Assembly (NCBI RefSeq): GCF_015244745.1
Contig: NZ_JABCQI010000011.1
Span: 1-64,000, forward strand
Reading direction: 5' to 3'
DNA from: Gluconobacter cadivus
GTDB taxonomy: Bacteria > Pseudomonadota > Alphaproteobacteria > Acetobacterales > Acetobacteraceae
DNA: 64,000 bases
Shown here one piece after another: positions 1-27,244 of the stretch (its first letter is position 1; the number at the start of each line of letters is the position of its first letter). The notes under the pieces are model-generated. The model worked only from the letters and a program-made list of their open reading frames with translations. It did no database searches and was not told the DNA's origin. The translations under genes and the position numbers were made by a program.

Positions 1-109
1 CTCAAGACCCTCAGTGGCCTTACCCCTTACGAATACGTCTGCAAAATCTGGACTTCAGAGCTAGAAAGATTCATCATCAATCCAACCCATCAAATCCCGG
101 GACTAAACA
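1..109 (+). mobile_element. 3' end of an IS481-family insertion sequence (transposase C-terminus)
   Basis: Frame 1 from the first base encodes LKTLSGLTPYEYVCKIWTSE followed by a tail ending NPTHQIPGLNT, which I recognise as the C-terminus of IS481-family (DDE, integrase-core) transposases. The rest of the element lies left of the window. The frame has no stop at the usual place and runs on into phage sequence to a TAA at 196-198, so the element apparently ends at about 107-109 (ACA, matching the TGT...ACA ends of this family). It sits inside the minor head gene that follows on the other strand. The exact element end is inferred, because the other end and the target duplication cannot be seen. 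Confidence 0.7.
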
Positions 110-642
110 CCGTAGCGGTCCTGCAATTCGGTGGTCAGCGTGGACAGATCGCGCCCGGCCATGACGGAACGCTGAACCATCGCCGAGACGTCGCTTAAAT
201 GCTGCTCGGCGATGCTTTTGATCAGCTCGACGTTCTCATTGATTACGCCATCTAACACATCCGTCACAGCCTTAGATGGTCGGAACTTCACTGCAAATCC
301 GGCCTGCTTCAGCTTGCTCATCAGCGATGTGTCAGCGCCCTTCTGCCACTTCCCCGCCTGCGTCTCCGCCATCTTCCGCGCCCGGTCATCGAACAGACTG
401 CGCCAGCGCACCGTCAGACGGTTCATGACCTTCTGAAGTTCGTCCGCCACGCTGTCCTGCGCAATGGTGGCTTCATGCTTTCGGTAGCTGGCCTTCAGCC
501 AGTAAGTCAGGCTTGCGTCCATTTCGTCGATCAGAGCCATTAGCGCCTTATAGTAGGCAATCTCAACTCCGGCATTGGGTCGGACAGGCTTGAGTGTCTT
601 AGGATGCTTACGCTGCTGCGCAGACACGCAACGTAAAGCCAT
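103..642 (-). pseudogene. Phage minor head protein (Mu gpF / SPP1 gp7-like), truncated by IS
   Basis: The 179 visible residues begin MALRCVSAQQRKHPKTLKPV and carry the N-terminal helical part of phage minor head (head morphogenesis) proteins, which sit at the portal vertex and assist DNA packaging. The frame ends ...LQDRYGV, and its stop codon is made from the last bases of the IS481-type element at 101-109. The C-terminal domain is therefore missing and the protein is probably non-functional. It lies directly downstream of the portal and terminase genes on the same strand, the usual order head-packaging genes take in tailed phages. The family call rests on position and general resemblance; the truncation is seen directly. 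Confidence 0.65.
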
Positions 643-719
643 GGCGATCTCCGATCAAAAGTGCGCCGAAGGGCGGCTCAATGTTTATGTAGGTTCGCCT
701 TGATTGATCGAGATGCCCC

Positions 720-2243
720 CTAAACCCCACTTGCCCCTACATTCCCCGCCGCCGGATCTGACAACAGCGAGATATGATCGTCTCCATCTTCTGGGGGCGG
801 CGGAACATCATCAACATCAATGCCGTCAAACGGGCTATCCGGGTCGTCAGCCACGACCTTGCGCCCTTCCTCTGGCGATACGACCCCGGCTTCGATCAGT
901 TCAACCACGGTATCAGCCTTGGTCTTGAGGATCGCAGCCTTTGCGGCGTCATCCATCTGCCAGAGCGGGATGAATGCAAAATCAATGCTTTAATCAATCT
1001 CCCCCCAGAGAGACAGCATGATGATGCGCATCACTCGCGTGAGGTGAGGCCGGAAGAACTGTTCCTGATAGGCGGCGACCCGGTCATACCAGACCCTGAT
1101 TTCACCATCTGACGAAGCATTGAGCCCGGATGGAGAGATACCCGTAAACTTGACCAGCGGCATCTGGGCGACAACACAGATTTGTTCCAGTGCCTGAGCC
1201 TGAAGCTTGTCCAGCCCCGCCAGATTGGCCGAAAGGATCTGAAGCTCTTCCTTTTCCTTGTCCGTAAGCATAACGCCACGGTTGGAGCGAAACTTGATAA
1301 ATGACTGCACGCGGTCAATTAGGCCGCCAACGCCTACTTTTTGCATGGTGGCCATGAGATCGGTTTTCAGATTAACGATGGAGCAGCCGTTAATAAGATC
1401 TGCCACGGACTGTCGTGTTCTGAGCCAGTTATCGACATAAGGCTTGGCCATCTGGGCCAGAGACATCCCGCCAAAATTGTATGATGGCTTCAGAATGTCT
1501 GGCACGTCGCGAGATACGAAACGCAAAAGACGACTTTCGTGCAGGTTCGCGCCCTGCACCCACCATGTGGATGGGCGATAGAAAGCGGATTTTAGGGGGT
1601 CTGCAGCGTTGTAGTCGTTCGGACTAATCCAGATCGGGTCAATTACCCGCAGCGACTTGAGAGCGCCAATGCCGATGGTTTCAGGTTCGACGAGAAGAGG
1701 TGTGGCAAGATCCGGAGAACGTGTCGGCAAGCCTGTATCCAGATAAAGCATCCCCAGACCATAGAAGCCGTCATATTCCGAGAGTTGACGAAACCGGTCC
1801 CGTACCTTCAGGCGCGTAAATTCTGATCGGAGATCCTTCAGGCGTTCTGATTTATCTTCTCCGTCCGCTGCACGAAACTCGATCCATTCGCGGGTAGATT
1901 CCTCGGCCAGTGTTCCGACGATGTGACGGTATTCGGCCCGCTGAGCCATGGCGGCCAGGCGCGGATAGCCCATGAAGGCCACCCCATCTGCCACAGCGTT
2001 ATTCATGAAGTTCTGAACGGCAGGCGGTATGGCGCTGTCCTGCGCAATGGGAGATGCCTTCGGCCGGACGCCGTCAAGTGGACGGTAAAGGGCGTATGAA
2101 GGCCGGTCCGCCCCACGAGAGAGGCCACGCTCCACCTCGCGCCATACGTCCCCATTGAATGGAAAGGGGGTTGCCTCGGCAATGCGCGGTTCCACCCGAG
2201 CGCGCGTATTGTCCACTGCTCGCTTGCGGGTAAAAGGCCACAT
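720..2243 (-). pseudogene. Phage portal protein (DUF1073 family) with an in-frame premature stop
   Basis: The first 417 codons encode a DUF1073-type portal, the dodecameric ring through which DNA is packaged; residues near the end (LNASSDGEIRVWYDRVAAYQ) are typical of the family. A TAA at 992-990 follows ...LSLWGEID. Reading continues in the same frame as SIDFAFIPLWQMDD and 78 more residues to the stop at 720, so the full gene would be about 507 codons. One base change (GAA to TAA fits the family sequence) explains the break. Pfam labels this family 'anti-CBASS Acb1-like N-terminal' by homology, but next to terminase a portal role is far more likely. It starts at the ATG at 2243, nine bases after the terminase stop. 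Confidence 0.8.
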
Positions 2244-2252
2244 AGATAAATC

Positions 2253-3563
2253 CTAGATCATTGCCATTTCAGCGGGGGTTAGACGCCGGAAGCCGTTAGA
2301 CGGCTGGTCCTCAAGCATGACTTCCGTCAGACCCCAGACCATCGCGTCCGCACGGTCGGGTGAGCGGGCGCCTTGGAAGCCGGAGGCCGAGAACTGGCAC
2401 ATCTGGTCCTCAAGATCCGGGAAGCGGCCGTGATGCATGACCTTGCCCTGTTCGTAGAGGGCGGCAATTGGCTCGGCTCGAGCATATTTCCCGCGGGAGG
2501 CCGTGACCAGTTTAACCGGAGCAGTTGCCCGGACAGACCGGATCGTCTGCTCAACCATCGCGCCGCCAAAGTTCCGTTCAGCGACAATCCGATCCGCTTT
2601 CCACAGATCCAGTGCATCCAGAGCGACTTTTGCCCACCCTGCTGGTCCCTGACGACAGGTGAGATCAGCAAGAACGTGACCAGTGCCATCACGGTCCACT
2701 CCCGTCACCGCAATGCCAATTTCGTCAGAACGATAGTCTTCGGGACCGGAGCATCCGGAGGGGTCGACTGAGACAACAATTCGACGCATCTGCAACAGCA
2801 CCCCACCGCGGTTTGCATCCGCTATCGGTGCCGAGCGTTTGATAAGGTCCAGAGTCCAAAGCGCACCATCAATGGCTGTCTGGTAATTGCCAAATAGAAA
2901 GCGCTGACGTTCCTTCTCGGGCAGGGATTCAAGCTGTTTCAGATATTCGGGCGACAGGTTTGCTCGGTTCGCGTCCGGGTTGATCTGCATCGTCGCATAA
3001 TCGGTAGGGTCGGGCAGGGGGTCTCCGCCCTTGGGCTCAACCTTCCGCTCAAACAGGCTATAGAGCCAGTGCGAAGTCGTTGGCGGGTTGGCGTCGATGT
3101 ATTCCTTGACCGAGAGACAGGTTTTCTGCGCCAAGCGGGTCAGCAGCATATTCCGCGCCGCGTAGCTGATCTGGCTTGCTTCGTTCATGTAAACAGTCGC
3201 GAACTCAAGCCCGAGGATCTTCTCGGTCCGCTCCGAACTGTCCAAGCCGTGAAACAGGATCTCCGAGCCATTCGGAAGGGTGACGTACCAATCAGTCCGG
3301 TTGAGCGTGTATGGCAGATCCGGAAAGCAAAGTCGCATGACCTTCGGGAACGTGTCGCCGATAATCGTGTGCTTCAGGGCATTGAAGCGGTGACGGAAGA
3401 TACCGTGTCGCGAGCCCGGAGCCTTCACCGCCCGGATGATAATGGCGCGGATCAACAGGAAAGTCTTACCCGACCGAGAGCCACCGCGAAGGAGGATATG
3501 CGTTGCTGGAGAGCCTAGAAGACGATTTGCGTCGGCCTGAGCGGGGTTCAGTGTGGCAACCAT
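2253..3563 (-). CDS. Phage terminase large subunit
   Basis: This 436-residue protein is the DNA-packaging motor ATPase and nuclease. A Walker A motif GGSRSGKT lies at residues 27-34, and a hydrophobic strand with acidic residue (ATVYMNEAS, about 124-132) fits Walker B. A C-terminal nuclease-like domain starts with IVVSVDPSGC near residue 262, with further acidic residues (ADAMVWGL near 410). Length and motif order match intact terminases of siphophages. It is preceded after three bases by the small subunit gene and followed by the broken portal gene, all on the minus strand, so the packaging module is syntenic although the prophage is damaged. Confidence 0.93.
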   Translation of the reverse strand: MVATLNPAQADANRLLGSPATHILLRGGSRSGKTFLLIRAIIIRAVKAPGSRHGIFRHRFNALKHTIIGDTFPKVMRLCFPDLPYTLNRTDWYVTLPNGSEILFHGLDSSERTEKILGLEFATVYMNEASQISYAARNMLLTRLAQKTCLSVKEYIDANPPTTSHWLYSLFERKVEPKGGDPLPDPTDYATMQINPDANRANLSPEYLKQLESLPEKERQRFLFGNYQTAIDGALWTLDLIKRSAPIADANRGGVLLQMRRIVVSVDPSGCSGPEDYRSDEIGIAVTGVDRDGTGHVLADLTCRQGPAGWAKVALDALDLWKADRIVAERNFGGAMVEQTIRSVRATAPVKLVTASRGKYARAEPIAALYEQGKVMHHGRFPDLEDQMCQFSASGFQGARSPDRADAMVWGLTEVMLEDQPSNGFRRLTPAEMAMI

Positions 3564-3566
3564 GGA

Positions 3567-4028
3567 TTACAGCGCATTGTCATCCGAGGTGATGGTGACG
3601 GCGATGGCACCGCTCTGTTGAACGTCATGCCGTTCCCGGTACTTCTCAGGTCGATGCGCCTTTAGAAGCAAGGTAGTCAGACTGTCGCTGAACTTCCGCT
3701 GCATAAGGGGTTTGCCCGTCTCGGGATCGCGGACAATCTGCCCCATAGAGATGACGTACTCCTCGTGACCATCCAATGCCCTACGACGTGCCTCAGCTTC
3801 CAAAGCATCGGTTGCCTCGTCAATCGCATCTTCCCATGCCCGGGCAAATTCGGGATCGGCCTCACGCCATTTGTAGGCGGTCGCCCGGTCAATCAACGCT
3901 ATTCTTGCAGACTCCGAAATGTTCGACGTTTTACGAAGATGCTGCAGGAATATCTCACGCGGATTACGCGTTGAGCGTGTTGTTTTCGTTGTCGTCCGAC
4001 CTTTAGCCAGACCTTTTCGCCCAGCCAT
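3567..4028 (-). CDS. Phage terminase small subunit
   Basis: The 153-residue protein starts at the ATG at 4028 (MAGRKGLAKGRTTTKTTRST); a longer frame extends 14 codons upstream without added family features. A basic N-terminus is followed by a helix-turn-helix-like stretch, (R)KTSNISESARIALIDRATAYKWR, matching terminase small subunits that recognise the packaging site on phage DNA. The C-terminal part (SDSLTTLLLKAHRPEKYRER) is a hallmark of this group. The gene abuts the large subunit gene, with stop and start three bases apart. Confidence 0.85.
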   Translation of the reverse strand: MAGRKGLAKGRTTTKTTRSTRNPREIFLQHLRKTSNISESARIALIDRATAYKWREADPEFARAWEDAIDEATDALEAEARRRALDGHEEYVISMGQIVRDPETGKPLMQRKFSDSLTTLLLKAHRPEKYRERHDVQQSGAIAVTITSDDNAL

Positions 4029-4199
4029 AGGCTTGATCCTTCTTGAATGGGAAAACGCTGCCTGTCTCACCGCCCATCATTTATGGGGGCGGAGCCTATC
4101 TATGCGTTGCGTCGATTACGTTTGCCTGTGGGAACGGCCTCAAGGGAGATCAGGCCTCTCAGTTTTGAAATGAGAACCGTAACGAGAGCACCTACAGAG

Positions 4200-13589: not shown

Positions 13590-14108
13590 TCAGTGCAGCC
13601 CGCGGTCCCGACCGAACGCACAGTCCGGAACAGGAGGCGCATGACCGCCGAACAACGCACGCCACGAGACGTCCGAAAACGGCTCAAGCGGCCCCCGTAG
13701 GACCGGCTCGGCACGCTCCTTCTTGGGATGCGTCGCTTCCTGACGGGCTTTCTTCCATCTGGCCCGGAGCGCTTTCGGAGCATGGCGTTCCATCGCGGCC
13801 GACAGGGAGGCAGGCGAAACACCCAGGGCCTTCGCAATGGTGCCAGCGCTTTCATTGCGCTCCATCATCTCAAGGAGCGTCGGCATCAGCGGGTCCCAGT
13901 CGATGCGATTATGCGTGTTCTGCGGAGACGAGCCACCCGTTGCGCTGCCGTTCGGCGACAGGCCCGCAAGGCCATGACGGCCAATCATCGAGGAGAGGGA
14001 GGTTTCCTTCAACCCGAGTTGAGTAGCGATCTCGCGGCGGGTCTTCCCGGCTCGGAGCATCGCCTCGACCTCGGGAAGGTGAGGTGTCCAGTCGTGGCGC
14101 ACCGTCAT
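13590..14108 (-). CDS. Double helix-turn-helix protein, GcrA-like style
   Basis: The 172-residue protein has two similar units: HLPEVEAMLRAGKTRREIAT with QLGLKETSLSSMIGRHGL, and LMPTLLEMMERNESAGTIAK with ALGVSPASLSAAMERHA. Each looks like the helix-turn-helix of GcrA and phage regulators. The C-terminus (PLEPFSDVSWRALFGG) also recalls GcrA-type tails. It may redirect host transcription or act within early phage regulation. The gene starts inside the stop of the 28-aa ORF (ATGA). Confidence 0.65.
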   Translation of the reverse strand: MTVRHDWTPHLPEVEAMLRAGKTRREIATQLGLKETSLSSMIGRHGLAGLSPNGSATGGSSPQNTHNRIDWDPLMPTLLEMMERNESAGTIAKALGVSPASLSAAMERHAPKALRARWKKARQEATHPKKERAEPVLRGPLEPFSDVSWRALFGGHAPPVPDCAFGRDRGLH

Positions 14109-14191
14109 TGTGCGACCCTCCCGGCGAAGTGAGCTCGGATGAACGCGGCAAAGGAGAGGGCGCAGAAGGCAATAGAAGCGAAATCAAGCAT
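14105..14191 (-). CDS. 28-aa membrane-like peptide ORF
   Basis: MLDFASIAFCALSFAAFIRA followed by HFAGRVAQ is a single hydrophobic segment with a basic end. A strong AAGGGAG lies about eight bases before the ATG at 14191, and the stop overlaps the next start as ATGA. Such signals in so short a frame support real translation, as a micro-membrane protein or a coupling leader. Confidence 0.5.
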   Translation of the reverse strand: MLDFASIAFCALSFAAFIRAHFAGRVAQ

Positions 14192-14294
14192 CGTCCCGGA
14201 CTCCCTTCACGGAAGTATCAGGCGTAGCGTCATTGCGGGGATCGGCGGCAACCGAGTCCCCGCTTTCACCATCTGACAATACAGAGGATGAACC

Positions 14295-14543
14295 ATGTCC
14301 GAAAATGCGCCCTTCATGCATGTCACGCCCAAGTACCCGAAATGCGGAGAGAACCTTTCCATCAAGATCTTGGGGACGGAGCCATCGAACGACGATCTCG
14401 TCTTTTGCGAGGCCTGCGGTTTCGAGGCTGGGACACGCCGTGAGGTCTTTGAGCACATTCGCGAGAACAACCGAGACGATATCGTCAATACGGCGCGCGA
14501 TGAGATTGCAAAGCTCCTCAAGAAGTCCCTCGGGAAACTCTGA
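14295..14543 (+). CDS. Small phage protein with a zinc-ribbon-like N-terminus
   Basis: The 82-residue protein (MSENAPFMHVTPKYPKCGEN) has one Cys in YPKCG and a CEACG pair, followed by a helical basic end (DDIVNTARDEIAKLLKKSLG). AGAGGA is placed six bases before the start and third codon positions are strongly G/C, both supporting coding. The opposite strand also has an open frame (14573-14184) whose start and stop overlap its neighbours in operon fashion. I favour this strand, but both could be used. Role unknown; RNA or protein binding is possible. Confidence 0.6.
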   Translation: MSENAPFMHVTPKYPKCGENLSIKILGTEPSNDDLVFCEACGFEAGTRREVFEHIRENNRDDIVNTARDEIAKLLKKSLGKL

Positions 14544-14565
14544 TCTGATCTTGAAGGTGAGGAGG

Positions 14566-14784
14566 TCAGGCATTGGCTGGCTCCTTTGCGGGCAGGAAGT
14601 CATTGAACGTGACTTTCCCCGCCGTGAATTCTGAGATGCGCTGGATTACTGGGAGTGCTGGAGTGCGCTCATGCTTCAGATACCGATATACGGTCCTGAT
14701 GCGATGGGGCCCGGTCACGCCAATAGCATCGGCGAGATCCGAGACGGTAACGCCTTCTTGGCGTCGGTATTCGTCAAGGGTCAT
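14566..14784 (-). CDS. Cro-like helix-turn-helix regulator divergent from the repressor
   Basis: The 72-residue protein from the ATG at 14784 (MTLDEYRRQEGVTVSDLADA) has a helix-turn-helix around VSDLADAIGVTGPHRIRTVY followed by RYLKHERTPALP. It faces the S24 repressor across about 95 bases packed with TGGCCA palindromes, one of which overlaps its own start. This is the arrangement of cro and cI in lambdoid switches, so it is the likely first gene of the leftward early operon and competitor of the repressor. A second ATG at 14790 is possible. Confidence 0.75.
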   Translation of the reverse strand: MTLDEYRRQEGVTVSDLADAIGVTGPHRIRTVYRYLKHERTPALPVIQRISEFTAGKVTFNDFLPAKEPANA

Positions 14785-14869
14785 GGCCATGAACGTATGG
14801 CCGCAATGGCCAGAACGTCAATCATTAACGGCCATCATGGCCATATATTTTTTATGCCAGATATGGCCA
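14781..14869. promoter_or_regulatory. Operator cluster 1 (TGGCCA palindromes) between cro-like and repressor genes
   Basis: Exact TGGCCA occurs at 14784-14789, 14807-14812, 14838-14843 and 14864-14869, with one-mismatch copies at 14798-14803 and 14829-14834. The first site is extended to the 12-bp palindrome TCATGGCCATGA. Neither flanking gene has a clear Shine-Dalgarno sequence, as for leaderless lambda-type cI transcripts. The same motif recurs at 17417-17478. Confidence 0.75.
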
Positions 14870-14879
14870 GACTGGACAC

Positions 14880-15587
14880 ATGACTAACGAGATACCTGAG
14901 AGCCGCGTTCAAGAGCTTCGTTTGATGCGCGGGATGCGTGCCGCTGAAGTCGCACGCATGGCGAGCATGGACCCTTCCACTTACAATAAAATTGATAAGG
15001 GGAAACGGGGAGTATCGCCGCAGTTTGCCAAGCCTCTAGCGTATGCGCTGAAGGTCGGGCGCCTCGATGTTCTGGCCGAAATCGGGTCTCCAATTAGAGA
15101 CGATGCAGACGAAGATCTGGAACGCATAGCTCTCGGACTTGATGAGCCGCAGCAGAACGAAAACAGCCTCAACGTTCCTGAGATCGACGTCAGTCCACAA
15201 GCTGGCATGGGTGCTGTGGTTTCAGATATCGTAGAGCATCAGCAGCCCATAGATCACTGGAGCTTTCCGCGCACACTTGTGAGCGCGTTCATCTCTGATC
15301 CTTCAAAACTGACGATTATCCGTGTGGCCGGCGACAGCATGGAGCCGGATTACTGCGCCGGAGATCGCATCCTGGTCGACACTGGGCACACTACCCCGTC
15401 ACCGGCTGGCGTCTATGTGCTCTGGGATGGTCTGGGCGTTGTCTTGAAGCGTGTGGAAGTCGTGATGGGATCAGAGCCTAAGCGCATCAGGATCATGAGC
15501 ATCAACCCCGCATATCCGGCCTACGAATTGGCTCTCGATGATGTGCGGATCAACGGCCGCGTCGTTGGGAAGTGGACTTGGAAGTGA
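14880..15587 (+). CDS. Prophage repressor, helix-turn-helix plus S24 (LexA-like) peptidase
   Basis: The 235-residue repressor has an N-terminal helix-turn-helix (RAAEVARMASMDPSTYNKID, about 20-39) and a linker. The S24 domain has the catalytic serine in GDSMEPDYCAGDRILVD (Ser153) and the lysine in VVLKRVEVV (Lys190), and an Ala-Gly pair at 108-109 could be the self-cleavage site. Such proteins keep the prophage silent and are cleaved when RecA is activated by DNA damage. It should bind the TGGCCA clusters on both sides of the immunity block. Both catalytic residues are intact, so repression and induction may still work although the virion genes are broken. Confidence 0.9.
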   Translation: MTNEIPESRVQELRLMRGMRAAEVARMASMDPSTYNKIDKGKRGVSPQFAKPLAYALKVGRLDVLAEIGSPIRDDADEDLERIALGLDEPQQNENSLNVPEIDVSPQAGMGAVVSDIVEHQQPIDHWSFPRTLVSAFISDPSKLTIIRVAGDSMEPDYCAGDRILVDTGHTTPSPAGVYVLWDGLGVVLKRVEVVMGSEPKRIRIMSINPAYPAYELALDDVRINGRVVGKWTWK

Positions 15588-15594
15588 GGGTAGG

Positions 15595-16545
15595 ATGAGC
15601 GAAGGACTCGGCAAAAAAAATAACGTTATCAAGGCGATGCCACGAAATATAGCCCGTCAGGAACTCGGGCAAAATCAACATGATTTAGACCTCGGCATTG
15701 AACTCCAAGCTGAAATTGATGGCATTGGAATGGGTGTCCTTCGTGACGGAACGCCTTTTCTAACTGGGAGGGGGCTTGCAAGGCTCGTTGATATTGAAAA
15801 CCTGCATATCCGTACTATTAGCCATGAATGGAATGAAGATCCTCTCAAACCTCGTGTTGCCCGGATAAAAGAGATTTTGGATAAATCTGGGATTGATTAT
15901 AAAAATGCGCATATCGAAATAGTCGATGGATCTCGCACTATACATGCATATCCAGCGCCAATATGTCTTGCTGTGTTAGAATACTATGCGTTTGATGCAG
16001 CTAAACCACGAGACAAAGCGCGGGATAATTTTCGGATCTTGGCTGGAAAAGCTCTTCAAGAACTCATTTACAGTAAAGTCGGATATGACCCGACCGGACA
16101 ACAAAGATTTCGTAAGTGGCATGAGCGCATTGAACTGAACCACCAAAGCGCTCCAGCAGGCTTTTTCAGTATTTTTAATGAAGCACATCCGATAATTTAT
16201 GAACTCATTATGGCCGGTGCTGAAATCGGTGAAAAAATGGTCGTTGATATTTCTATTGGGAAGGGCTGGGCATCCTATTGGGATGCGAATGGCTTAGCTA
16301 AACGATATGGGGATCGAGAAAAATTTCCTCATAGATATCCTGACGATCACCCGCAAGCTAAATCGAACCCTCAGATCGCAAATTGCTACCCGCTTGAATC
16401 TTTAGGTGAATATCGGAGATGGCTTCAAGAAGATTACTTGGGGCAGGGAAAGTTTGCAAAGTACCTGCGAGGAAGAATACCTCCATCAGTGGCTGAGTTA
16501 GCTATTGAAAGGCTGGCTCCTCAAGCGATTGAGAAAAAAAACTAA
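15595..16545 (+). CDS. BstA-like prophage protein, candidate abortive-infection factor
   Basis: The 316-residue protein starts at the ATG at 15595 with GAGGG upstream, seven bases after the repressor stop. An N-terminal part (GVLRDGTPFLTGRGLARLVD) resembles the KilA-N/P63C-type start of phage proteins. The C-terminal half has GFFSIFNEAHPIIYELIMAG, VVDISIGKGWASYWDANGL, HRYPDDHPQAKSNPQ and LGEYRRWLQEDYLGQGKFAK, a pattern I associate from memory with the BstA family. BstA proteins are encoded near prophage repressors, stop replication of invading phages and spare the own phage through a DNA element. The assignment is from recalled sequence pattern plus position, so moderate only. Confidence 0.5.
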   Translation: MSEGLGKKNNVIKAMPRNIARQELGQNQHDLDLGIELQAEIDGIGMGVLRDGTPFLTGRGLARLVDIENLHIRTISHEWNEDPLKPRVARIKEILDKSGIDYKNAHIEIVDGSRTIHAYPAPICLAVLEYYAFDAAKPRDKARDNFRILAGKALQELIYSKVGYDPTGQQRFRKWHERIELNHQSAPAGFFSIFNEAHPIIYELIMAGAEIGEKMVVDISIGKGWASYWDANGLAKRYGDREKFPHRYPDDHPQAKSNPQIANCYPLESLGEYRRWLQEDYLGQGKFAKYLRGRIPPSVAELAIERLAPQAIEKKN

Positions 16546-16550
16546 CCCCA

Positions 16551-16572
16551 CCCGGCTCCGGCCGGGTTTTTT
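16551..16572 (+). terminator. Rho-independent terminator after the BstA-like gene
   Basis: A perfect CCCGGC / GCCGGG stem with TCCG loop is followed by six T. It separates the repressor/BstA-like transcript from the next gene. Confidence 0.88.
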
Positions 16573-16602
16573 GATGCGATCAGCTCAAAAGGGATGTCCG
16601 AC

Positions 16603-17151
16603 ATGGATCTTAGCCAGAGAATTGCAGAGTATGGCGCTGAGGCCGTGAATTATTACGTCAAAATGGCGAGGCTCAAATACGACAATGAGGTCAGAGAAGA
16701 ATTTGTCAGCGCGCGGATAGCAATAGCTTTGTTCGAGCGAGACGGCCTCGCTGCTCATGTTGAACGAGACTACCTCAGAATAGTGCAAGAACTGGGGAAT
16801 GAGGTTAGTTCAAAAGATATTTCCAGCATGGGAAGCAAGCGCGCCGATATCGCAATTTATAATTGCGATGGCAATCCCTTAGCAGTTATTGAGGTGAAAA
16901 TTTGCGACGAGGGCGATCGAAACGGCGCAGCAGTATTAAGTGACTACGAGAAAATCCAGAATCTTCGCGAGAGGGTTACGATAGACACCTATCTTGCTAT
17001 TCTTCTCACAGATATTAACGACACAAAAAGATGCGAGATACGGCGCGGCAATCTAGAAGAAAGCTTGCATAGTCCCTTCACCGGTGACAGTGGTCTCATC
17101 CGCTCTCAAGATGCCGCTTGGGAATGGCAATTCCTTGCAGGAAAATTCTGA
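16603..17151 (+). CDS. PD-(D/E)XK nuclease-like protein in the immunity block
   Basis: The 182-residue protein (MDLSQRIAEYGAEAVNYYVK) has KRADIAIYNCDGNPLAVIEV followed by K, that is D-(x)n-E-V-K, the core of PD-(D/E)XK phosphodiesterases. The residue spacing (D92-like in ADIAIY, ExK 15-17 residues on) and the preceding helix fit restriction-endonuclease-like folds. An ATG at 16594 is the alternative start. It follows the BstA-like gene after a terminator, within the lysogenically active region bracketed by operator clusters, so it may be another defence or exclusion function. That role is inference. Confidence 0.55.
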   Translation: MDLSQRIAEYGAEAVNYYVKMARLKYDNEVREEFVSARIAIALFERDGLAAHVERDYLRIVQELGNEVSSKDISSMGSKRADIAIYNCDGNPLAVIEVKICDEGDRNGAAVLSDYEKIQNLRERVTIDTYLAILLTDINDTKRCEIRRGNLEESLHSPFTGDSGLIRSQDAAWEWQFLAGKF

Positions 17152-17236
17152 CGCTCAAGTCGTTGAAAGCATCTTCCCAGGAAACTCACATCCCAGAACG
17201 GCTTTGAATAATCGTCACCCGCCAATGGAGACGACA

Positions 17237-17374
17237 ATGCCCGACATTCGAACAGCCTGCGGCCAGCCCCCAGTGCCGCCGCCAAGTCCTCCCGGACCTC
17301 CGCACCCAAATCCATACCCGCCACCGGGTGAGGGTCCGCCACCCATGCAGGAACCGTCCCAACCGGTGAGCTGA
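17237..17374 (+). CDS. Proline-rich 45-aa peptide
   Basis: MPDIRTACGQPPVPPPSPPG and the following PPHPNPYPPPGEGPPPMQEP make a peptide that is about half proline, ending in QPVS. GGAGA lies about eight bases before the ATG at 17237. No fold is expected; phage polyproline peptides can bind SH3-like or chaperone partners. Coding is plausible but not certain. Confidence 0.4.
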   Translation: MPDIRTACGQPPVPPPSPPGPPHPNPYPPPGEGPPPMQEPSQPVS

Positions 17375-17416
17375 CAGAGACCTAGTGAGAGCCGGGTTTC
17401 TTTTGGTGGAAATGGA

Positions 17417-17479
17417 TGGCCATAAAAGATATGGCCAACATGGCCAAATAAACATTGACGAACTGGCCATAACGGCCAT
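17417..17479. promoter_or_regulatory. Operator cluster 2 (TGGCCA palindromes) before the rightward operon
   Basis: Exact TGGCCA occurs at 17417-17422, 17432-17437, 17441-17446 and 17464-17469, plus CGGCCA at 17473-17478. The cluster lies 40-105 bases upstream of the first gene of the recombination/integration operon (17522). The motif is the same as between the repressor and the cro-like gene, so both early operons are probably silenced by one repressor. Confidence 0.75.
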
Positions 17480-17521
17480 AAGGTTCTCCCACACCGCACG
17501 AAGCGGCGAGGGAGAACCACA

Positions 17522-17749
17522 ATGGCGAACCTGCCTGACAATTTCTCACAGAGTGCGTTTGATGCCCGCTACGGCGCTGGCAACACGGCTCTGGACGACG
17601 AATACGATTATCTGCGCGGATTGCAGGCTGCGTATGACGCGATCGACGTTCTGGAAGATCCGAACGACGATCAGCTTTCCGAACTACTGACCCTTGAGGA
17701 TCAGATCGCAGATCAGCGCATCACCATCTCGATGATGGAGGATGCGTGA
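17522..17749 (+). CDS. Hypothetical phage protein (75 aa), first gene of rightward operon
   Basis: MANLPDNFSQSAFDARYGAG starts an acidic, helical protein (LEDPNDDQLSELLTLEDQIA). GAGGGAG stands about eight bases before the ATG. It is the first gene after operator cluster 2. No family recognised; its stop overlaps the next start (TGATG). Confidence 0.6.
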   Translation: MANLPDNFSQSAFDARYGAGNTALDDEYDYLRGLQAAYDAIDVLEDPNDDQLSELLTLEDQIADQRITISMMEDA

Positions 17750-17958
17750 TGTCAGCAACACTCACACGCCCGGTCTCTTATGATCAGGCCTGCAAGGATC
17801 TGGCTCCGGTCTGGGAATATCTCAAAGAACAGCGTCAGCAGGCCAATTTCCTGCACGGGACGAGGGCAGAGCGGGCATTGCGGGATGAGCGAACCGCCGA
17901 AATCGACCGGGTGGAAAAGCGCCTGAATGACTTCGTGGCCCAAGTAACCACCGACTGA
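17749..17958 (+). CDS. Hypothetical phage protein (69 aa)
   Basis: MSATLTRPVSYDQACKDLAP begins a small charged helical protein with a central EYLKEQRQQANFLHGTRAER. It starts on the last base of the previous stop, so it is translated from the same message. No known motif; small early genes in this place in other phages are of unknown role or inhibit host functions. Confidence 0.55.
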   Translation: MSATLTRPVSYDQACKDLAPVWEYLKEQRQQANFLHGTRAERALRDERTAEIDRVEKRLNDFVAQVTTD

Positions 17959-17988
17959 CACCAGCAGTAAACGACAGGAATTTCTGAA

Positions 17989-18279
17989 ATGCGTGAAACA
18001 GCAAACGCCCGAGGTGTGTCTGGTGAACTGGAGTTCTTTCCGCCTGCGGTACGGCGGGAGATCCTGAACCTTGAGAGCCTGATCACTTACCACAGCAATC
18101 AGGCGATTATCGCGCCGCTGGAGAATGACCGTCGTGTGGCTCGGGACGTGAAGACGTCGGCGCTGACCCGCCTGAACGGGATCTACGAACGCCCCGACGT
18201 GAAGCAGGTCATGCGGACGCTCGGCGCGGTGCATGCCGGTCTGGCCTTCATCATGATGGAAACGCGGGGGGTGGCATGA
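17989..18279 (+). CDS. Hypothetical phage protein (96 aa) before the exonuclease
   Basis: MRETANARGVSGELEFFPPA begins a helical protein with a C-terminal hydrophobic stretch (GAVHAGLAFIMMETRG). It overlaps the exonuclease gene by ATGA, so it is tied to the recombination module. No family known to me; an exonuclease modulator is possible from position only. Confidence 0.55.
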   Translation: MRETANARGVSGELEFFPPAVRREILNLESLITYHSNQAIIAPLENDRRVARDVKTSALTRLNGIYERPDVKQVMRTLGAVHAGLAFIMMETRGVA

Positions 18280-21661: not shown

Positions 21662-22046
21662 GGCCCTGCAAAACACACTCACCCTGAAAGACGTTCTCGA
21701 GAGGCTCAAGGGCCGGATCGGCCGAACGCGCCTTATCTATCATCTGCGCGATGTCAAAGAATACGATGGCGGCCCAACCCACCGCAGGTGGGGCAAGCGT
21801 ATCATCTTTCTTCATGCCGATTTTAACCGACTGGTACTGAGCCTAGAATGCAAATCAAGGTCGTCAAACGATCATCATCCAACACGCTCTATCTCCGCGG
21901 CTCCCTCAACGGAAAGCGCATTTTTGAAAGCACAGGAACTTCTGACCCCCAAAGGGCAGAAGAATACCGGGCGAAACGCGAAGCCCAGCTATGGACGGAA
22001 AGCGTCTATGGCAAAAAGGCCGTCGTCACTTTCTCCCATGCCGTAG
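21654..22046 (+). CDS. Excisionase-like helix-turn-helix protein overlapping the integrase
   Basis: The N-terminal 65 residues (LTLKDVLERLKGRIGRTRLI then YHLRDVKEYDGGPTHRRWGK and RIIFLHADFNRLVLSLEC) form a winged helix typical of phage excisionases, which bend attachment DNA and favour excision. The frame stays open for another 199 bases inside the integrase gene, giving a Ser/Lys-rich tail (LLTPKGQKNTGRNAKPSYGR). I recall similar tails with LL.P....TGRSAK in relatives, which suggests that the overlap is genuinely double-coding rather than read-through noise. Confidence 0.7.
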   Translation: MSEALQNTLTLKDVLERLKGRIGRTRLIYHLRDVKEYDGGPTHRRWGKRIIFLHADFNRLVLSLECKSRSSNDHHPTRSISAAPSTESAFLKAQELLTPKGQKNTGRNAKPSYGRKASMAKRPSSLSPMP

Positions 22047-22948
22047 CGGCGTATGTTGAGGCCGAGCCGAGGTCTGATGCGACAAAGGCATACCTCTTGC
22101 GACTGCTTAATTACTTCGGAATGACGCGTCTGGCGGACATCAATCAGACTGCGCTTGATGAAGCGTACAAAGTGGTTTTGCGAGATGGTGCCCAAGCTAG
22201 TCCGGCCACGAAGGTCCGTTCAGTTTTAACGCCCCTTCGGTCGGTGCTGGAGTTTGCAGCGATCCGCCAATGGTGCGACCGGCCTGCGTTCGATAAGCCT
22301 CGCATTCCGGTTGGTCGAACGGTCTATCTCCGCCCGGAGCAAGTGAGGCGCCTGATCGACAATGCTGCGCCTCACCTGAAGCCGCTTCTGGTATTCTTGT
22401 TCGGCACGGGCGCACGCATGTCAGAGGCTCTTGAGCTTGACTGGGCCTGCGTGGATCTGAGAGGAGGGCGGGCCGTCGTTTGGCAGAAGCAAGGAAACGA
22501 GCGGCATATCGATCTGCCGCCACGCGTCTGTGCGTCGCTGGCTTCTCTGCCGAAGCGGGATGGGCGCGTATTTCGTCCCGTTCGCGCGAGGAAATCAAGA
22601 AACGGGCAGGGCAGGGAGATCGGAGAGGCTTATTCTGGAAACGGCCGAACGAGTGGCGGCCAGATCAAGTCTGGATGGTCGGTGGCTTGCCGCAAAGCGG
22701 GTCTGCCAGGACACATGCGCGTCTGGACGCCCGTGGGGCAAGAGAAGCCGAAGAGCGTATTTGTGCCAGACGTCACTCCTCACGATGCCCGTCACACATG
22801 GGCAAGCTGGCAATACTGCCTGCACAAGGATCTGATGCGCCTTAAGGCTGACGGCGGATGGGGCAACATCACGACGGTCACGCGCTACGCCAAAGTGATG
22901 CCGGACGCCTATCGAGATGAAATTCTGGAATGGCTGGGGATCCAGTAG
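21848..22948 (+). CDS. Tyrosine-recombinase phage integrase
   Basis: The 366-residue integrase has an N-terminal arm/SAM-like part (NTLYLRGSLNGKRIFESTGT, FSHAVAAYVEAEPR) and a catalytic domain. The residues are Arg190 in FGTGARMSEALELDW, His312 and Arg315 in HDARHTWAS, Trp338 in GGWGN and nucleophile Tyr347 in TRYAKVMPD. All are present, so it should be active. It lies 171 bases from the 3' end of tRNA-Val, the normal position relative to an attachment site in a tRNA gene. The start overlaps the excisionase frame. Confidence 0.93.
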   Translation: MQIKVVKRSSSNTLYLRGSLNGKRIFESTGTSDPQRAEEYRAKREAQLWTESVYGKKAVVTFSHAVAAYVEAEPRSDATKAYLLRLLNYFGMTRLADINQTALDEAYKVVLRDGAQASPATKVRSVLTPLRSVLEFAAIRQWCDRPAFDKPRIPVGRTVYLRPEQVRRLIDNAAPHLKPLLVFLFGTGARMSEALELDWACVDLRGGRAVVWQKQGNERHIDLPPRVCASLASLPKRDGRVFRPVRARKSRNGQGREIGEAYSGNGRTSGGQIKSGWSVACRKAGLPGHMRVWTPVGQEKPKSVFVPDVTPHDARHTWASWQYCLHKDLMRLKADGGWGNITTVTRYAKVMPDAYRDEILEWLGIQ

Positions 22949-23106: not shown

Positions 23107-23206
23107 TCACCGGACCGAGTGGTGGGCGCAACAGGGATTGAACCTGTGACCCCTACCATGTCAAGGTAGTGCTCTACCGCTGAGCTATGCGCCCCCGGTC
23201 CGGTGA
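23107..23206. repeat. 11-bp inverted repeat bracketing tRNA-Val
   Basis: TCACCGGACCG (23107-23117) and CGGTCCGGTGA (23196-23206) are exact reverse complements, placed two bases from each end of the tRNA gene. In the precursor RNA they could extend the acceptor stem as a long helix. They could help processing or act as a structure at the attachment region. Confidence 0.75.
23120..23194 (-). tRNA. tRNA-Val (anticodon GAC), likely prophage attachment site
   Basis: The reverse strand reads GGGCGCATAGCTCAGCGGTA at the 5' end. It has a D-arm, anticodon stem CTACC/GGTAG with loop TTGACAT (anticodon GAC), T-loop GGTTCAATCCC, and an acceptor stem closed by TGCGCCC, discriminator A and encoded CCA (23122-23120). 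Cloverleaf elements are complete. Its 3' end points towards the integrase gene, which fits integration into the 3' half of the tRNA. The other attachment copy would lie left of the window, so the core cannot be defined here. Confidence 0.95.
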
Positions 23207-24105: not shown

Positions 24106-24400
24106 ATTCATAGGGATCGCCCTGTTCATCCCGCCTTGACGGATCATTTTTCTTGGTGCGCGCAGTTTGGTTTGGTTATCGCCATATTGCCGCTTCCAGG
24201 CTGTTTCCGTCGATGAAGCAAAGTGCGTTTCTCCACTGGAAACACTAAGCGCTGTCTGTACCGATGAGGCGGGTCGGTATGGGTCATTGTGGATTATCAC
24301 CGGATCAAACTGGAGAGAGGTCAAGAATAGTCACGTCTAGGACAGACGTCGTTTTTCTTGACCTCAAAACCCTCATAAAATTGAGTAATGGAGACTTGTG

Positions 24401-27244
24401 ATGGTCCAGAATTTTACGCCACTCTGGGGATCCGCAACAGATACGCCAGATGTGATCGGCTTGGTCAAATCACCTCAGATTGCCAGCGCGTTTGGTAATA
24501 AGGTTGATGCAGATGGCGGACAGTCCATCAACCAATCAATTCAGTCCGGTGCGCTTGATGCACTCAGTACGCTCGATGGTGTGAGCGTTACGGATGTGCT
24601 GGCGGCCAGTAGTCGGGCGCAGGTGTCTTCGGTAATGCAGTTCAGGGCGCTTAAGACTGCCCCTGTTGCGGTTACACTGACATCGTGGGACGGGACGACC
24701 CAGACGCGAGGGGCTGCTGGAATTTTTCTTCTGGCATCTGATGGGCTTGTGGCGGATGGAGGTGTCGTCATTGCGACGGCGGGCGCCGGAACCTATCGCC
24801 GCGTTTTTCAGGGCGGGGTGGATCCGGCTTGGTACGGTGCAATCGGGGATGGCACCTCGCACCCGGCTTCAACGATGTTTGCCACACTGGCCGATCTGCA
24901 AACGGTTTTCCCCAAAGCTTATAGCCTATCACAGGAAATGGACTGGCTGGCGATTCAGGCTGCCTCGCTCTCGGGATATGGCGTTTCCGGCCCAAAGCGG
25001 GCCTATATGATGTGCAACAGTGCGGTTGCCTCCGATGACAAACCGCTTGTCTGGATTCCGGGCACTACATTCGGGTCGTTCGGTGGATCAACTTTCGATT
25101 TCACGGCGTTGGAAACCGCCGCTGACAGCCAGGATTTTGTGACAAACGGTACGTTCTCCGATACAAGCGGTGCAGGTTGGTCTAACGCCACGATCTACCC
25201 GGCAATGCAGATCACAGATGCAACCTTTACGACCGGTGCAGCTATATTTACCGATCCGGCTGCCCATGGAGCCTGGACCGGGACAGTCTCGGGCGGTGTT
25301 ATGACCGTGAGCGGGTTTTCAGGAAGTCCTGGGCTGGCTGTGGGTTCTGTGGTTTATGACATTGACAACACGCTCGCTTCGGGGACGACGATCACGAAAC
25401 TGCTGACGGGGACGGGGGGCGACGGCACGTACCAGATCTCTGATGGCGCGGCGTCTATTACAACTGCGGTCGCCATGTCAAACTCCACCGGCCATTATGG
25501 GCAGTTTGGCCAGAAGCTTACGTTGCCGGCCGGAAATTATACGCTGGACGTCAAGTACGAGGTTACGCTCGGGGCATCTTATGCGAATGGAAACGGACAG
25601 CCGGGGAATGTCGGGGTTTCGTTCAGTGCGAATGGTCCAGGGTCTGGAAATAATCCCTGGAATAATTATGTATTCAAAGACACCGGCTGGGCAGATCCAG
25701 CAGTTGAAGGCGAGATTTCGTTTGCATTCAATGTAGCAGAAGCTGGGAGCGCGTGGCTGACCATTTCGGTTTCGGGTTATATCAATGTTCGCGTTACGAG
25801 CGTCTCCGTCAAGGCATTGCGGTGGAACTGCGCAGTTCTTTCGACACGTGATGGTGCCTTGGAGCACTATTCGAATAATGTCCTGATCGAAGGTCTTACG
25901 ATCCTTGGGCCGACGGGTAATGCTGGCCTGACGGGCTTATTTTATAATTCATTTCAGAACACGGACGGCACGATCCACAACTTCAAGGATCTTTCCATAC
26001 AGGGGTTCGGTGTTGGGATTGACTGGCGTAACGGGGCTTATCTCGCTGAATACTGGAACTGCTCCGTAACGTCCTCTGCATTATATGCGGTCCAGTTCCT
26101 GGCGGGCAGCGTCAATGCGGGCGAGAATTTCCGCTGGTACGGCGGCAGTCTTGGAAATTCGACAGGAATTGTGTTCAATCCGGGCGGGGCTGAAATCACA
26201 TTTTATGGAACGTCTCTGGATTATTCGGACCAGATCGTCATCCAGAACACCGGCCGCATCGAGATGCATGGTGTGCATTGCGAAATGTGGGGACCTCAGA
26301 CTGAGAACAAACCGCTGTTTCACTGTACCGGAAGCGGATACTTGGGATGGTTTGGCGGGATGATCCTGCTGGCCGGAAATTCGGCGACCTATAAGACGCC
26401 ACCGGTCTGGATGGAACAGAACCTTTCACAGATCTGTTTTTACGGGACCCAGCTTTACAATCTGACAAGTGCGGATGGTCGGGCAGCTTATGGCGCCGGG
26501 TCGATCAAGACGTTTAACATGCTGAATACCGGAAACCCTAATATCGGGACGTTTATCAACGGGACTTCCGATCGACTGGGACTGTCAGGAAAGTTTATTC
26601 CGCAGTCCAAGTCCGTATTGTGCCGGGATGGGATTGGACTGGCTGGCGGCCTGTACTCCGACAATGCCGATGCGGTCTCCCAATGGGTATCGGATGGCGC
26701 GTCAGTCGCCATGAGCACGGCCTATACCGTCAACGGCAATCCTGCCGCGCTGGCGGTCACGACCCAGGGTAACAGTCGGAACGACCGCGTCGTGCTCTGT
26801 ATCCCGATTGATCGTTATCAGTCAGGTTTTTTTAATATCCAGTGCCTGTTTCCCTACGATCTGACACAGACTGGTAAGGTTCTTTCAACGAATTCGCAGT
26901 CAGCAGCCTACTCGGATGATGTCTTTCCTCTCTATGCGCGAGCGTTTTACGTGTCGATTGTGGGTTATGACAGCTTCGGGAGGCCGAACTTTGGTGCGCG
27001 CGATCTGTTCGCGGGTGAAGCGGATTTCAGAATTCCAAAACAGGGTTGCACCCAATGGATGGAAGCTGGTTTTGCGTGTGCTTATTTGGGGCTGCCATCG
27101 GCAGGCACAGGCGAAAATGATATCTCGCTTGCAGGTGCGGGGGGGGCTCCGTCCTTTGCAACACATATCGCCATTGTTCTGGACAGCGAAAGTCTGCCTG
27201 CGACGACATATTACATTGGGGAATTCGGTGGCTCCGTCTTCTGA
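24401..27244 (+). CDS. Orphan phage tail-spike/fibre-like protein with beta-helix
   Basis: The 947-residue protein has no signal peptide. Residues around 140-190 (VDPAWYGAIGDGTSHPASTM and EMDWLAIQAA) match the 'WfGA.gDG..dDt.aiQaA' entry of pectate-lyase-type tail spikes. A jelly-roll-like module follows. A repeat-rich right-handed beta-helix region follows (NVLIEGLTILGPTGNAGLTG, SIQGFGVGIDWRNGAYLAEY, IQNTGRIEMHGVHCEMWG). Tail spikes bind or cut surface polysaccharides. No other virion genes are near, and it lies outside the prophage beyond the tRNA, so it is a stray or repurposed phage gene. GGAG lies about six bases before the ATG used. Confidence 0.7.
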   Translation: MVQNFTPLWGSATDTPDVIGLVKSPQIASAFGNKVDADGGQSINQSIQSGALDALSTLDGVSVTDVLAASSRAQVSSVMQFRALKTAPVAVTLTSWDGTTQTRGAAGIFLLASDGLVADGGVVIATAGAGTYRRVFQGGVDPAWYGAIGDGTSHPASTMFATLADLQTVFPKAYSLSQEMDWLAIQAASLSGYGVSGPKRAYMMCNSAVASDDKPLVWIPGTTFGSFGGSTFDFTALETAADSQDFVTNGTFSDTSGAGWSNATIYPAMQITDATFTTGAAIFTDPAAHGAWTGTVSGGVMTVSGFSGSPGLAVGSVVYDIDNTLASGTTITKLLTGTGGDGTYQISDGAASITTAVAMSNSTGHYGQFGQKLTLPAGNYTLDVKYEVTLGASYANGNGQPGNVGVSFSANGPGSGNNPWNNYVFKDTGWADPAVEGEISFAFNVAEAGSAWLTISVSGYINVRVTSVSVKALRWNCAVLSTRDGALEHYSNNVLIEGLTILGPTGNAGLTGLFYNSFQNTDGTIHNFKDLSIQGFGVGIDWRNGAYLAEYWNCSVTSSALYAVQFLAGSVNAGENFRWYGGSLGNSTGIVFNPGGAEITFYGTSLDYSDQIVIQNTGRIEMHGVHCEMWGPQTENKPLFHCTGSGYLGWFGGMILLAGNSATYKTPPVWMEQNLSQICFYGTQLYNLTSADGRAAYGAGSIKTFNMLNTGNPNIGTFINGTSDRLGLSGKFIPQSKSVLCRDGIGLAGGLYSDNADAVSQWVSDGASVAMSTAYTVNGNPAALAVTTQGNSRNDRVVLCIPIDRYQSGFFNIQCLFPYDLTQTGKVLSTNSQSAAYSDDVFPLYARAFYVSIVGYDSFGRPNFGARDLFAGEADFRIPKQGCTQWMEAGFACAYLGLPSAGTGENDISLAGAGGAPSFATHIAIVLDSESLPATTYYIGEFGGSVF

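Follow-up and report, generated by a model that had tools for sequence, protein, structure and literature searches.

The locus described here raises the question of how a prophage that carries the gene for an abortive-infection protein could spare its own DNA. It lies at positions 15595 to 16545 of a 64,000-nucleotide stretch of Gluconobacter cadivus DNA (contig NZ_JABCQI010000011.1, from its first base; hereafter the window) and encodes a homologue of BstA, the protein that in Salmonella prophage BTP1 is silenced by a DNA element called aba. The main text of PMC8585504 describes the BTP1 aba as a 63-bp element spanning the start codon and bounded by essential CCCGCC repeats, and reports that abortive infection, the sufficiency of aba, the need for both repeats, and the DNA nature of the element were demonstrated. 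How aba silences BstA was left open by its discoverers. Comparison of BstA loci suggests that aba mostly follows one plan, in which two matched repeats (R1 and R2) stand 56-57 bases apart around a likely bending site for integration host factor (IHF), and this spacing and IHF rule makes the question testable. We consider it likely that the window encodes a BstA abortive-infection protein on a prophage, that the first codons of its gene double as an R1-IHF-R2 aba element, and that copies of such elements without bstA (orphans) act as escape sites.

The bstA homologue is an open reading frame (ORF) of 316 amino acids on the forward strand with an ATG start. The sequence-only reading had proposed it as a BstA-like candidate from the motifs FSIF, DISIGKGWASYW, and YRRWLQEDY, all of which are present in the translation of 15595-16545, and from its place behind a prophage repressor. 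Profile searches bore this out: the PADLOC profile for BstA matches residues 26-296 over profile positions 4-271 of 292 (363.7 bits, E 1.5e-109), and phrog_6287, annotated "BstA abortive infection system, replication inhibitor," matches with E 2e-85. An NCBIfam search of the protein gave no match, and Pfam gave a sub-threshold HeH match alone (E 0.092). These profile matches place the gene firmly in the BstA family, whose members are anti-phage proteins encoded by prophages. The ATG lies 8 bases 3' of the stop codon of an S24/HTH prophage repressor gene (14880-15587, forward strand; Pfam Peptidase_S24, 7.9e-16; phrog_4 repressor, 3.1e-33), and bstA is probably expressed together with the repressor in the lysogen. 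The protein shares 41% identity with BTP1 BstA and belongs to the same family over nearly its full length. In both phages bstA lies behind the repressor gene, with two direct repeats at the gene start (56 bp apart in BTP1, 57 in the window). The repeat core differs, being CCCGCC in BTP1 and ACTCGG in the window, and, unlike the BTP1 aba, the window element falls within the coding sequence if translation starts at 15595. A start at 15637, within the IHF-like site, was weighed since two early codons differ in kind between the window and L001, a related IMG/VR contig, and was set aside because the ATG at -135 is kept in Acetobacter sicerae (L019), which makes 15595 the more likely start.

An AlphaFold2 model of the protein (mean predicted local distance difference test score [pLDDT], 84.7) comprises an N-terminal winged-helix-like domain (approximately residues 32-153) and a C-terminal domain, preceded by residues 1-30, which have a pLDDT below 50 and are predicted to be disordered. 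The N-terminal domain weakly resembles that of DdrC (Z 6.4, root mean square deviation [rmsd] 3.6, 96 residues aligned) and the MBP1 DNA-binding domain (Z 4.3, rmsd 3.9, 84 aligned), both below the Z of 8 advised by the tool, and there is a further weak likeness to MerR-type DNA-binding domains; a Foldseek search with the model returned nothing at an E value of 0.001 or lower (best, 0.027). A KilA-N-like domain in the BstA N terminus is reported in the main text of PMC8585504, and the weak fold matches of the modeled domain agree with it and support, without proving, DNA binding.

The evidence for a common aba plan comes from aligning BstA loci. An initial repeat search of six loci, BTP1 and the window included, detected a 56- or 57-bp pair in every locus except L015. 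Two homologue scans supplied the best 80 of 156 and the best 80 of 237 relatives. Loci were anchored at a conserved MGVL codon, and similar ones were merged to 124 by shared 12-mers; 7 of 179 could not be anchored (L007-L012 and L050), L032 and L129 lacked 200 upstream bases, and L004 and L006 duplicated the window. Over the 170 bases that precede the anchor, a repeat with a score of at least 7 is present at a shift of 57 in 51 of the 124 loci and at a shift of 56 in 30, the median over shifts being 1, and control stretches of the same loci, inside the gene and upstream, gave 3 of 124 each at shift 57. With a score of at least 6.5, 86 of 124 loci have a direct repeat at 56 or 57 (pairs of shifts not touching these: median 3, highest 12), and at a threshold of 6 the count is 99. 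The repeat sequence itself varies from locus to locus (CCCGCCA, AAGGAAATC, AAGGAACTCG, CACCACC, CCGCGCAC, and others), and the two copies within a locus match; in BTP1 the pair consists of CCCGCC at a distance of 56 bp, the same repeats that were reported as essential for aba. R1-R2 identity was 0.74 against 0.53 for permuted pairs, and 0.63 against 0.46, values inflated by a bonus for R1 = R2 when the repeat register was fitted and by the selection of loci at a repeat score of at least 6; the spacing counts and the offset count for orphans given below are unaffected. Three independent loci were held out (L409, L410, and L411; L406 was excluded, since its element looks the same as that of L055), and L409, on Azospirillum plasmid p4, shows the full plan: two copies of CAAGGAAATC at 57 together with an exact IHF site. 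At two further bstA loci, L090 (Verrucomicrobium) and L097 (Limisphaerales), long matched repeats stand at 55 and 67, the latter approximating 57 plus one helical turn. Nine of the 124 loci, all with spacing 56 (L068, L088, L091, L123, L124, L131, L133, L156, and L178), have a CTAGC...GCTAG palindrome around R1, and any IHF match in them has at least two mismatches. A search for coupling between repeat letters and BstA residues had only 12.3 effective sequences and its top pairs were single outliers; we claim nothing from it.

When the 59 loci with spacing 57 are aligned on their repeats alone, the spacer shows the pattern W-A-T-C-A-R-N4-T-T-R at element positions 27-39, which, like WATCARNNNNTTR, we take to be the IHF consensus. 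Its core, CARN4TTR, occurs at a single offset in 36 of the 59. Exact matches to WATCARNNNNTTR on the coding strand of the element region are present in 32 of 124 loci, compared with 0, 1, 0, 0, and 1 of 124 in five control regions, and permuted consensus sequences matched in a mean of 0.5 loci (maximum, 17 of 124). The BTP1 aba contains AATCAAATGGTTA, an exact match to the consensus, and the genome of the window encodes an IhfB above the cut-off. From these patterns we infer that IHF binds and bends the spacer.

The window follows this plan in degenerate form, with a predicted self-immunity element at 15601-15669 (forward strand) that lies in frame within the first 25 codons of bstA. R1, GAAGGACTCGGC (15601-15612), and R2, CAGGAACTCGGG (15658-15669), were identified by repeat comparison, share the core ACTCGG, and are 57 bp apart; between them, at the position typical of the family (-103 from the MGVL codon), lies TATCAAGGCGATG (15627-15639), an IHF-like site with one mismatch to WATCARNNNNTTR. 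ACTCGG-N51-ACTCGG without mismatch occurs once in the genome, at 15601-15669. By comparison, the two copies in Acetobacter sicerae (L019) are identical, AAGGAACTCGGG, and flank an exact IHF site. A DNA element near the gene start that protects the home phage had been anticipated within 15540-15700; the comparison supports it, and we have modest confidence that the predicted element is functional.

Composites of the same kind also occur away from bstA. We searched viral contigs for pairs of AAGGAAATC or AGGAAATCA at spacing 57, with spacing 60 as the control. Among 65 distinct spacers at 57, 7 came from bstA loci and 58 did not, and in 15 of these 58 CARN4TTR lies at the expected offset, with at most 1 at any other offset and 0 of 37 at the control spacing; the chance expectation at one offset is 1 in 1024 for each spacer, assuming equal base use. 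The 15 orphans lie in different genes, 3 of them replication or helicase genes, although L213, L225, and L340 belong to one family of small genes and are thus not fully independent. That family provides an internal control: in the variable middle of 12 of its 49 members (L254-L265) lies a pair at 57 with a score of at least 6.5 (8 of them at least 8), the best IHF-like match being in register in 11 of the 12 with 0 to 2 mismatches, and only one of the remaining 37 (L286) scores 6.5 at 57, at another place. Bradyrhizobium phage ppBeUSDA76-2 (OP596614) carries two copies of AGGAAATCA at 57 and between them a TATCAACGCCGTA that departs from the consensus at one position; a BstA match was obtained for 12 phage records, and OP596614 is not one of them. 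The other Bradyrhizobium phage record in the small-gene family, OP596615, lacks a pair at 57, making one of two. BstA searches of 15 and 11 orphan-bearing records, with positive controls in both sets, found no BstA, and because no record was rated at least 90% complete, the absence of bstA from orphan-bearing phages is likely, not proven. The non-BstA composites are probably orphan aba elements serving as DNA-only counter-defence. L189 (4090-4155) contains a possible orphan aba whose CARN4TTR is at the expected offset; in one frame it falls in a small lipoprotein-like ORF and in another frame in a longer one.

Other repeat types gave different outcomes. Of 25 stretches matching the Salmonella-type arrangement CCCGCCA-N15-IHF-N21-CCCGCCA, 24 have bstA behind the element (among them L248, which ends after 67 bases and whose contig was seen with bstA as L160), and bstA likewise accompanies the 63-bp aba in all 8 phage records that have it. 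At L242 (1545-1607), an intact Salmonella-type aba, with both repeats and an exact IHF site, precedes a decayed bstA of which a short remnant is recognizable. Since all 25 stretches come with bstA or its remnant, no free-standing orphan of this type was found. Three contigs match the window-type pattern AAGGAACTCG-N47-AAGGAACTCG; all are one repeated coding sequence with no IHF site by eye and were not counted. In 385 alphaproteobacterial genomes there were no matches to AGGAAATCA-N48-AGGAAATCA.

These observations lead to a model in which the N-terminal winged helix of BstA would bind both matched repeats, host IHF would bend the spacer and thereby bring the BstA-bound repeats together, and the closed complex would disable BstA on the DNA that carries aba. 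The induced home phage could then replicate, and foreign phage DNA would be blocked. Variation in the repeat sequence would make each BstA specific for its own aba, and phages that have the composite site but not bstA could rely on it to escape BstA. We give roughly an even chance to the broader proposal that aba is a modular nucleoprotein site, defined by variable matched repeats, an IHF bend, and a fixed 56/57-bp phase, of which phages lacking bstA carry free copies in their own genes, including replication genes, as a DNA-only counter-defence. The arrangement recalls phage lambda attP, where IHF assembles a nucleoprotein complex and the sites of one protein flank the IHF bend at a fixed phase; the difference is that aba has no recombinase and its proposed partner is a defence protein. 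Phage decoy and self-immunity strategies in which immunity comes from a DNA site and not from a protein are also known, and the proposed orphans differ from general DNA decoys in lying in or beside other genes and in combining matched repeats with an IHF site. The rule predicts an aba in most BstA loci, names IHF as the likely host partner, and marks the variable letters that possibly carry specificity. If the proposal is true, orphan aba elements would be an anti-defence device invisible to protein-based searches and could predict which phages escape which BstA. The consulted passages of PMC8585504 describe neither a general spacing rule nor orphan elements, and searches of openly licensed PMC literature, covering titles and the beginnings of abstracts, gave no report of such a rule, of an IHF site in aba, or of orphan copies.

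An element readable in frame within the coding sequence in 45 of the 59 spacing-57 loci had to be distinguished from a peptide repeat. Fifty-seven bases are 19 codons, both copies could encode K-E-I-T, and a K/E-E-I frame is possible for most orphans as well, so that the repeats might reflect nothing more than a protein-level repeat shared by the alphaproteobacterial BstA N terminus and other phage proteins. Codon usage argues against this. Within the element GAA is used in 62 of 63 cases (50% in the rest of the same genes), ATC in 89 of 91 (48%), and AAG in 45 of 48 (60%), and TTA encodes 28 of 38 leucines at the IHF position as against 8.3% of leucines elsewhere in these genes; by these counts, codon choice in the element is constrained at the DNA level. 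A shared frame is impossible for spacing-56 pairs, and R1 must precede the start codon in 38 of 99 loci (24 of 40 with spacing 56 and 14 of 59 with spacing 57). The element in the L206 primase gene, in which the TTR half of the IHF site is missing and which is outside the 15 orphans, is in a different reading frame, an argument that is firm for L206 only (L189 and L196 are readable either way), and L310 has no long ORF at the element. Finally, the encoded stretch corresponds to the predicted disordered residues 1-30 of the window protein. We regard a mere peptide repeat as extremely improbable.

Two other explanations accept the composite as a DNA site and assign it another role. It could be mainly an operator, at which a BstA-IHF loop represses bstA and self-immunity arises as a by-product of titration. 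The location of the element around the gene start, with R1 upstream of the start codon in the loci just counted, is what an operator would show; the same 45 spacing-57 loci in which the whole element can sit in coding sequence, the orphans in unrelated genes, and the finding, in the main text of PMC8585504, that the BTP1 aba protects P22 and works from a plasmid with hardly any transcription all make this role quite unlikely. Somewhat better placed, though still rather unlikely, is the idea that the composite is an origin-like replication site targeted by BstA, the copy at bstA being a decoy and the orphans genuine origins. Among 10 host ORFs of orphans or orphan-like elements that were scanned, 4 match replication proteins (initiation, L319; primase, L206; helicase, L328 and L329), and phage DNA replication is blocked by BstA, as the main text of PMC8585504 reports. 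The other 6 of the 10 have no match at all, about three-quarters of the small-gene family lacks the element, and the BTP1 aba, placed on P22, protects that phage (PMC8585504, main text), unlike a target site.

Several results weigh against the aba plan itself or its application to the window. Related loci remain among the 124, so that P values overstate independence, and 25 of the 124 score below 6 at 56/57. R1 has its own R2 as best partner, ties included, in only 19 of 59 and 11 of 40 loci, which means that many loci share repeat types. Among the held-out loci, L410 (Sagittula plasmid) has neither repeat nor IHF site, and L411 (Escherichia coli 20.1) is weak, with GATCGC twice at 57, a score of 6.0 (7.0 at another shift), and one mismatch in the IHF site. 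The IHF core occurs at one central offset in only 5 of the 40 spacing-56 loci, the reverse orientation yields 4 exact and 29 one-mismatch IHF matches in the element region, the IhfA-like gene of the window's genome falls below the cut-off (114.3 versus 120.25 bits), and IHF is absent from the main text of PMC8585504. In the window, shift 84 scores as high as the repeat pair (7.0), R1 has drifted at 4 of 12 positions from the form of the L019 clade, the IHF-like site has one mismatch, and a strict detector requiring the exact consensus misses the element. The drift in R1 and the imperfect IHF site would also fit a real bstA whose aba has decayed, leaving the prophage no longer shielded from its own BstA. 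The window and L001 show four differences within 15601-15669, and all four spare R1, R2, and the fixed IHF positions; on balance we think decay unlikely, if a more serious prospect than an operator or an origin, and favor, with modest confidence, a degenerate but functional R1-IHF-R2 element.

The same contig, L001, indicates how bstA spreads. An exchange module at 15547-16572 (forward strand), comprising the 3' end of the repressor gene, bstA with its aba, and a terminator, is 93.4% identical to L001, and the similarity, whose first 41 bases belong to the end of the repressor gene, breaks off at both module ends. The terminator-like hairpin lies behind bstA at 16550-16567 (16550-16572 with its T-run; forward strand), one of 3 such sites in the stretch where 1.7 would be expected by chance; an Rfam search over 14000-18000 gave no match. 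The L001 BstA is 98% identical to that of the window and is preceded by a repressor-like ORF that by eye differs in sequence, and by a 194-amino-acid ORF. On this comparison, the bstA cassette is one that moves between phages as a module. Its distribution is sporadic: BstA is present in 2 of 26 genomes of the genus searched, this one counted. In the other (L406), whose BstA is 49% identical, the repressor tail is the same and is joined to a different bstA, which also has a different repeat. Among 385 genomes from the window's class, 5 had a match to the family, 3 of them partial, and in 369 genomes of the class of L056 the family occurred solely in the centre genome itself. In one genome of the same taxonomic family (G026), four equal-score matches to the C-terminal half of BstA (L009-L012), each in a 284-amino-acid open frame, may represent a mobile gene that uses the BstA C-terminal domain alone.

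The surrounding prophage had been suggested to be a defective one kept as an immunity island. The sequence does not bear this out. Genes for head morphogenesis, portal, and large and small terminase (103-4070, reverse strand; PHROGs), a replication gene to the left of bstA, an exonuclease gene to its right, and a tyrosine integrase at the right prophage end (21848-22948, forward strand; Pfam Phage_integrase, 3.4e-15; phrog_1, 1.1e-38) are present, together with a tRNA-Val(gac) gene (23120-23194, reverse strand; ARAGORN) that, from its place beside the integrase, is the likely attachment site. Base 1 of the window is base 1 of contig C11, which begins within the prophage; the left part is thus missing from the contig. 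A tRNA-Val search of the genome found no partner for the tRNA-Val end of the prophage. On contig C8 of the same genome (G000), a second tRNA-Val-like copy (98176-98250) and a 50-bp partial copy (143944-143993) lie approximately 46 kb apart, and this looks like another prophage integrated in a tRNA-Val gene. Behind the bstA terminator, a 185-amino-acid ORF (16594-17151) has a sub-threshold HSDR_N-like nuclease match (E 0.044) and may be an additional defence gene. A 948-amino-acid protein with matches to phage tail proteins (phrog_13768, 5e-12) is encoded at 24398-27244, past the prophage's tRNA-Val end.
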